A program made the translations under genes and the position numbers. 35,006 nt of DNA from Calditrichia bacterium. GTDB lineage: Bacteria > Calditrichota > Calditrichia > Calditrichales > Calditrichaceae. The notes under the pieces are model-generated. The model did not search any database. It saw only the letters and a program-made list of their open reading frames with translations, and was not told the origin of the DNA. The stretch spans positions 1 through 35,006 of the forward strand of contig JALSTK010000153.1 in the NCBI GenBank assembly GCA_026983775.1, written 5' to 3'. Positions 26,514 to 28,462 of this stretch are shown here, in pieces. The stretch's first letter is position 1. The number at the start of each line of letters is the position of its first letter.

Positions 26514-27407
26514 ATGATTCCCGTTACCGAATATTTAAAACCTGAGACGCTTACCAGGCTTTCTAATTTGGAATTTATTGCCCGCCTGGTTGTAGAAGGA
26601 TTTTTGACCGGTTTGCATAAAAGTCCTTTTCACGGTTTCAGCGCTGAATTTTCCCAGCATCGGCCTTACATGTCGGGTGATAGTCTGCGCTTTGTTGACT
26701 GGAAAGTATATGGGAGAACCGATCGCTACTATATTAAACAATTTGAAGAAGAAACAAACCTTCGTTCTTATATCATTTTGGATATTTCCAATTCCATGCA
26801 ATATGGTAACCCGAAAATTACCAAAGCCAGGTATGCTACCTATCTTGCTGCTGCCTTATCCTATTTATTGATTTTGCAAAGAGATGCAACCGGTTTGGTT
26901 TTATTCGATAATCAAATAAGAAAAACGTTACCGCCTAAATCGATCTTTTCCTATCTCACGGTTTTGCTTTCTGCTATAGAACAGCAAAAATCGGGTACCG
27001 ACACACAGATCAGCCCGGTTTTACACCAGATTGCGGAACAATTTAATCGCCGGGGATTAATAATCCTTATTTCCGATTTACTGGACGATCCGGAATCCAT
27101 TTTGAATGGCTTACGACATTTCCGCCATGACCGCCATGAAGTTCTGGTATTCCATATTTTGGAAGAAAGCGAACAAACATTCAATTTTAGCGGTAATATT
27201 ATATTTGAAGATATGGAAAACGGGGAAAGAATTAAAACGCAACCCGCTTATATCCGGGAAAGTTACCGGCAACAATTTCAAAATTATCTAAAAACCATCA
27301 AGAACGGCTTAATTAATGATCGCATAGATTATAAATTACTAACAACCCGTACACCTTATGACGTGGCTTTAACCGAGTATTTATTAAAAAGGAAACGTTT
27401 ATTATAA
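26514..27407 (+). CDS. DUF58 domain protein (vWA-like)
   Basis: The 297-aa protein has the DUF58 signature HGFSAEFSQHRPYMSGDSLRFVDWKVYGRTDRYYIKQFEEE cut here into FSAEFSQHRPYMSGD, RFVDWKVYGRTD and KQFEEETNLR. It continues into a vWA-type region with ILDISNSMQYG (MIDAS-like DxSxS) and LIILISDLLDD. DUF58 proteins usually travel with a MoxR-type AAA+ ATPase, but none is encoded in this window. There is no transmembrane segment. Its TAA stop shares one base with the selD ATG at 27407, so the pair is probably translationally coupled. The pairing itself has no obvious functional explanation. Confidence 0.9.
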   Translation: MIPVTEYLKPETLTRLSNLEFIARLVVEGFLTGLHKSPFHGFSAEFSQHRPYMSGDSLRFVDWKVYGRTDRYYIKQFEEETNLRSYIILDISNSMQYGNPKITKARYATYLAAALSYLLILQRDATGLVLFDNQIRKTLPPKSIFSYLTVLLSAIEQQKSGTDTQISPVLHQIAEQFNRRGLIILISDLLDDPESILNGLRHFRHDRHEVLVFHILEESEQTFNFSGNIIFEDMENGERIKTQPAYIRESYRQQFQNYLKTIKNGLINDRIDYKLLTTRTPYDVALTEYLLKRKRLL

Positions 27408-28462
27408 TGAAACAGATCAAGTTAACCACTCTGGTCAGTTGCGCTGGTTGAGCCAGTAAAATTGATCCGGAGGTTCTGGATAAGATAATTCCCAGGAATA
27501 ATCAACTTTCCGATGCCAATCTGCTGGTAGGGAACCAGTCGTCTGACGATGCCAGTATCTACAAATTGAATGATCAACTGGCTCTGGTGCATACGGTCGA
27601 CTTTTTTACTCCCGTTGTGGATGATCCCTATATCTATGGACAAATTGCGGTCGCAAACGCCTTAAGTGACATTTATGCCATGGGGGGCAAACCTCTGACG
27701 GCCCTGAATATCGTCGGATTCCATCAGGGCAAAGTCACACCCGATATTGTTCGTACCATTTTGGAAGGCGGCACCCGGAAAGCCCGGGAGGCAGGCTGTA
27801 TTATTGCCGGCGGCCATTCCATTCAAGATGAAGAACTCAAATACGGTTTAGCCGTAACCGGTCTGGTTCATCCCGAAAAATTTTGGAAAAATAATTCGAT
27901 TGAAGAAGGTGATGTGATTCTTCTTACCAAACCCCTGGGTACAGGTGCTATTTCCACGGCTTTGAAACAGGACAAAGCGGACGATAAAGATGTGGAAGAA
28001 ATAGTGACAAGCATGCGTTTACTGAATCGTCAACCGGTTGAAATCTTGCAAAAACACAAATTAAATGTTCATGCCTGCACCGATGTAACGGGATTCGGTC
28101 TGGCCGGTCATTTGCTGGAAATGATTAAATCCAGTTCTCTCGACATTGAGGTCCGGCTTGAAAACTTACCTCATTTTAAGAATGCCCTGGAGTATCTGGC
28201 CCAGTATTCATTTCTACCGGGCGGATTTTACAGTAACCGCGAATTTGCTGCCGGTTCAATCGTTTCTCAAAAGAAAATCGATGATCCGGAATATAATATT
28301 TTATTTGATCCCCAGACCAGCGGTGGGTTGATAATTACCTTATCTGAACAACAGGGTGAGCAATTTATTTCTTTAGCCGAACAAGCCGGATATCCCTATA
28401 AGATAGGAATAATCGGTCGGGTAAGCAAAGGGCAGGGAGGAATGCTGCGTATCTCAGGATAA
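27407..28462 (+). CDS. selD: Selenide, water dikinase, itself a selenoprotein (in-frame TGA = Sec15)
   Basis: This 351-aa enzyme makes selenophosphate from selenide and ATP. The reading frame begins at ATG 27407 and contains TGA at 27449-27451. That TGA falls exactly where SelD has its essential Cys (E. coli Cys17 in GCGCK); here the context is SCAG-U-ASKIDP with Lys18 retained. Homology continues unbroken across it: LLVGNQSSDDASIY, HTVDFFTPVVDDPYIYGQIA, NALSDIYAMGGKP, TDVTGFGLAGHLLEM and FDPQTSGGL. A SECIS-like hairpin follows (27465-27481). Annotation from the first ATG after the TGA (27566) would wrongly lose 53 residues including the active site. The organism should therefore have SelA, SelB and tRNA-Sec elsewhere. 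Confidence 0.93.
27465..27481 (+). promoter_or_regulatory. Candidate bacterial SECIS element in selD
   Basis: ATCCGG (27465-27470) pairs with CTGGAT... as CTTGGAT-type arm 27476-27481 (sequence CTGGAT; one G-T wobble), leaving the apical loop AGGTT with the GG/U pattern typical of bacterial SECIS. The loop begins 19 nt after the UGA, within the distance described for bacterial SECIS elements. Confidence 0.75.

Follow-up and report, generated by a model that had tools for sequence, protein, structure and literature searches.

An intact selD gene of predicted selenocysteine type

The DNA analysed here, a 35,006-nucleotide stretch of a Calditrichia bacterium (GCA_026983775.1, contig JALSTK010000153.1, positions 1 to 35,006 of the forward strand; hereafter the window), carries a selD gene that is almost certainly intact and that is predicted to encode a selenophosphate synthetase with selenocysteine (Sec) at its catalytic loop, the in-frame UGA codon being recoded by means of a hairpin. 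The gene (selD, selenide, water dikinase, 351 aa; 27407..28462, + strand) was read from ATG 27407 to TAA 28460–28462, and its ATG shares one base with the stop codon of a DUF58 gene lying upstream (TAATG). The sole internal stop of the frame is the TGA at 27449..27451 (+ strand), beyond which 336 codons are open. It was claimed in a preliminary description of this DNA that this TGA is residue 15 of the frame and falls at the essential Cys17 of Escherichia coli SelD, and the alignment agrees, pairing CAG-U-ASKIDP of the window protein with GAG-C-GCKISP of E. coli K-12 SelD (in longer context, VSCAG-U-ASKIDPEVLD with SHGAG-C-GCKISPKVLE). The UxxK loop U15-A-S-K18 thus aligns with C17-G-C-K20. 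A Cys12 codon at 27440..27442 (+ strand) supplies the partner of Sec15 in a CxxU motif (Ser-Cys-Ala-Gly-Sec), as read from the frame and from relatives; among 28 rows of Calditrichota Sec-SelD, of which two hold one and the same sequence, 26 showed CxxU.

SelD-type sequence was likewise described as uninterrupted on both sides of the TGA. Consistent with this, the read-through frame scored 373.7 bits against TIGR00476 selD (curated equivalog cut-off 125 bits), with residues 5–315 on model positions 1–309, and both AIRS domains were matched. The expectation that standard gene calling would truncate the gene held for its consequence, as a conventional call would drop the active-site loop, and not for the start codon: the codon at 27566, given as an ATG, reads TTG, and past the TGA no ATG occurs in frame before 27680 (residue 92).

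A SECIS-type hairpin within the coding sequence

A bacterial SECIS (bSECIS) hairpin was identified from covariation and the bSECIS model at 27465..27481 (+ strand), within the selD coding sequence, with a 7-bp stem (AUCCGGA/UCUGGAU), a GGU loop (27472–27474) and a UGA-to-loop spacing of 20 nt. The bSECIS model specifies a stem of 4–16 bp, a loop of 3–9 nt with G in one of its first two positions, a UGA spacing of 16–37 nt and an energy threshold of −7.5 kcal/mol (PMC13188914). In stem, loop, G and spacing the window hairpin conforms to this model, and the bare hairpin, at −7.4 kcal/mol, is borderline relative to the published threshold. A 55-nt segment, which includes further small hairpins, folded at −10.5 kcal/mol. 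This longer fold, which surrounds the TGA, did not stand out from shuffled sequences (z = −0.13); the signal comes only from the short hairpin and from its covariation.

Across 27 distinct Calditrichota Sec-SelD sequences, 91 % of stem cells were paired, compared with 77.5 % in shuffles and 21–50 % when the stem was slid. Compensatory changes followed the same pattern, with 36 cells altered on both sides versus 10.3 in shuffles, and all 27 sequences had G at the first or second loop position. The outer stem was imperfect in several relatives of families f5 and f6. When the window segment was recoded synonymously, only 2 % of the variants folded as well as the window hairpin, and no comparable hairpin was found past the Cys codon in four Cys-type fusion paralogues (0 to −3.6 kcal/mol).

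Recoding machinery and other selenium traits

The genome to which the window belongs (G000) is 4.03 Mb and 99.5 % complete. Previously a functional Sec-decoding system had been predicted elsewhere in the genome, and absence of selA, selB or selC had been named as evidence against a Sec reading. Searches of the genome recovered all three, so this test did not refute the reading: selA on G000:C99 (497.3 bits, above the curated cut-off), selB on G000:C131 (377 bits, above the cut-off, its product having a winged-helix domain of the SelB type) and tRNA-Sec on G000:C177 (Rfam 69.8 bits, gathering score 47; ARAGORN anticodon TCA).

By analogy with the known pathway, we infer both Sec insertion and enzymatic activity for the window SelD. 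SelB carrying Sec-tRNA(Sec) would bind the hairpin just 3′ of the UGA and deliver Sec there, and the ribosome would not stop. The resulting enzyme would convert selenide and ATP to selenophosphate, the selenium donor from which SelA would make Sec-tRNA(Sec). As Sec-SelD would supply the donor for the Sec-tRNA(Sec) used in its own synthesis, it would depend on its own product.

Two peroxiredoxin genes of G000 also have an in-frame TGA at the peroxidatic Cys, with a short hairpin after each: DFTFVUATE (L163, G000:C119:3341-3739) and AFTFVUPTE (L164, G000:C166:11889-12278). At least one TGA-containing peroxiredoxin gene was present in all six relatives searched. The two genes of G000 suggest that SelD is probably not the sole selenoprotein of the genome. 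The formate dehydrogenase alpha subunit (FdhA) and FlpD were considered as further selenoproteins and gave no match in G000. TGA was absent from nearly all FdhA-like matches of the other family members; a formate dehydrogenase-like fragment of G012 (G012:C424:7316-8065) has one in-frame TGA and is possibly a Sec-FdhA. SelU was not found in G000. YqeB, the marker of the third selenium trait, reached 71 bits in G000 against a cut-off of 220, and every match in the phylum was below the cut-off.

Distribution in the Calditrichota and alternative readings of the UGA

A selD gene with one in-frame TGA was found in 30 of 40 Calditrichota genomes. In 27 distinct genes the TGA lies at exactly the same codon, which cannot be attributed to chance, and it is kept down to about 42 % identity. 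The selD region of one of the loci, L021 from a Calditrichia metagenome-assembled genome, is identical to that of G004. TGA-selD and selA occurred together in 26 genomes, TGA-selD alone in four, selA alone in three and neither in seven (Fisher P = 0.0015, with relatedness among the genomes ignored). The four genomes with TGA-selD in which no selA was found (G007, G013, G036 and G038) are all fragmented drafts, and tRNA-Sec is present in G013. In the six genomes of family f2 (G015–G020), neither selA nor tRNA-Sec was found above cut-off, and their selD has no TGA, as the Sec reading predicts; this selD adjoins selU. The Sec trait has apparently been lost from, or was never present in, this family, with selenouridine kept. 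Two full-length selA genes were observed in G033 (C2:6727-8076 and C278:5042-6403) and in G037 (C80 and C62), which could reflect duplication or draft contamination.

Outside the phylum, TGA at the SelD site was common among 80 loci from other bacteria, including Helicobacter, Clostridia, Bacillus, Acidobacteria and Verrucomicrobia, with frequencies that are not representative because the loci were picked by similarity to the query. Bacterial Sec-containing SelD occurs in, for example, Haemophilus, many Clostridia and Campylobacterota.

This conservation bears on the alternative that the gene is a Cys-type selD in which the TGA arose by nonsense mutation or through a sequencing error. The genome does have a Cys-type NifS-SelD fusion (described below), which would then be the sole working enzyme. 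An isolated lesion is nevertheless very improbable given the recurrence of the same TGA in three-quarters of the genomes, and the long open frame past it with a covarying SECIS hairpin attached. Equally hard to sustain is translation only from TTG 27566, with an N-terminal leader ending at the UGA. The open frame from that codon does exist. Its 298-aa product would, however, be without the catalytic loop and its Sec or Cys, and both the hairpin and the SelD residues flanking the TGA are conserved in relatives, which makes this reading very doubtful. It is distinct from the partial termination at UGA that is expected for every selenoprotein mRNA. A variant code in which TGA is a sense codon genome-wide, with Trp or Gly at this residue, found no support and is dismissed as exceedingly unlikely, since TGA is the ordinary terminator of nine of the 33 listed window genes, the aligned residue of relatives is Cys and the Sec machinery is present in the genome.

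Relation to known SelD proteins

Sec-SelD is a long-known selenoprotein family (PMC1794560, PMC13188914), in keeping with the statement in the preliminary description that Sec-containing SelD is established in bacteria. The window selD, read with Sec at the UGA, is a further member of this family, and it shares with bacterial Sec-SelD (TIGR00476) the family assignment, the UGA position, the UxxK loop, the downstream bSECIS and the machinery. It differs in subtype: CxxU is the norm in the Calditrichota, whereas in marine metagenomes its reported share of the single-domain Sec-SelDs is about 5.6 % (PMC2398784). We found no open-access paper discussing selenocysteine in the Calditrichota. The significance of the finding lies in the Sec-decoding trait in this phylum and in the correction of a gene that would be cut short by ordinary gene calling. 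The features of some specialist interest are only the CxxU subtype and the pairing with a second SelD, which is less expected than the Sec-SelD itself.

A second SelD fused to a cysteine desulfurase

Unusually, the window genome has a second, Cys-based SelD beside the Sec-SelD. Profile matches identified a 735-aa protein (L002:328-2535, on G000:C63) consisting of a NifS/IscS-type cysteine desulfurase and a full Cys-SelD with the motif GLGCACK. The desulfurase part scored 500.8 bits against TIGR03402, slightly below the cut-off of 530.75. Such NifS-SelD fusions were found in 14 of the 40 Calditrichota genomes, and 12 of the 14 also have TGA-selD. A FastTree phylogeny built from 120 SelD domains recovered the 13 fusion domains that it included as monophyletic (support 1.0) and separate from the standalone Calditrichota genes.

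Two bacterial NifS-SelD fusions have been reported before (Mariotti 2015, PMC4561486; PMC2398784). That of Geobacter sp. FRC-32 contains Sec with a CxxU motif (PMC2398784, PMC4561486). The second SelD of the window genome has the same domain order, desulfurase then SelD, as the Geobacter protein; in contrast to it, the Calditrichota fusions are Cys-type and mostly accompany a standalone Sec-SelD. NADH dehydrogenase-SelD fusions, which have a CxxC motif (PMC2398784), are similar in placing a Cys-type SelD behind an N-terminal fused enzyme and different in that the window-genome protein has a desulfurase partner and a CxC motif.

Selenouridine synthesis was considered as the reason for a second SelD and rejected, as G000 has no SelU. 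Given this and the YqeB score below cut-off, the fusion SelD most likely serves the Sec pathway as well. Because its synthesis requires no Sec, a Cys-type SelD could initiate the cycle on which the Sec enzyme depends. On the basis of gene content, we hypothesize that the NifS-Cys-SelD fusion primes or backs up the self-dependent Sec-SelD. A broader proposal, which we put forward tentatively and regard as somewhat less likely to hold than to fail, is that many Calditrichota divide roles between Sec-SelD and NifS-Cys-SelD, the fusion acting as a starter and recycler that draws its selenium from (seleno)cysteine and breaks the self-dependence. The pair of Sec-SelD and NifS-Cys-SelD offers a natural system in which to study how a cell with a Sec-requiring SelD resumes Sec synthesis after selenium starvation.

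One of the fusions, in G039 (L143, G039:C1:1229500-1234000), has a frame that stops early, giving 554 aa with SelD residues 3–106 only; it is perhaps a frameshift or a decaying copy.
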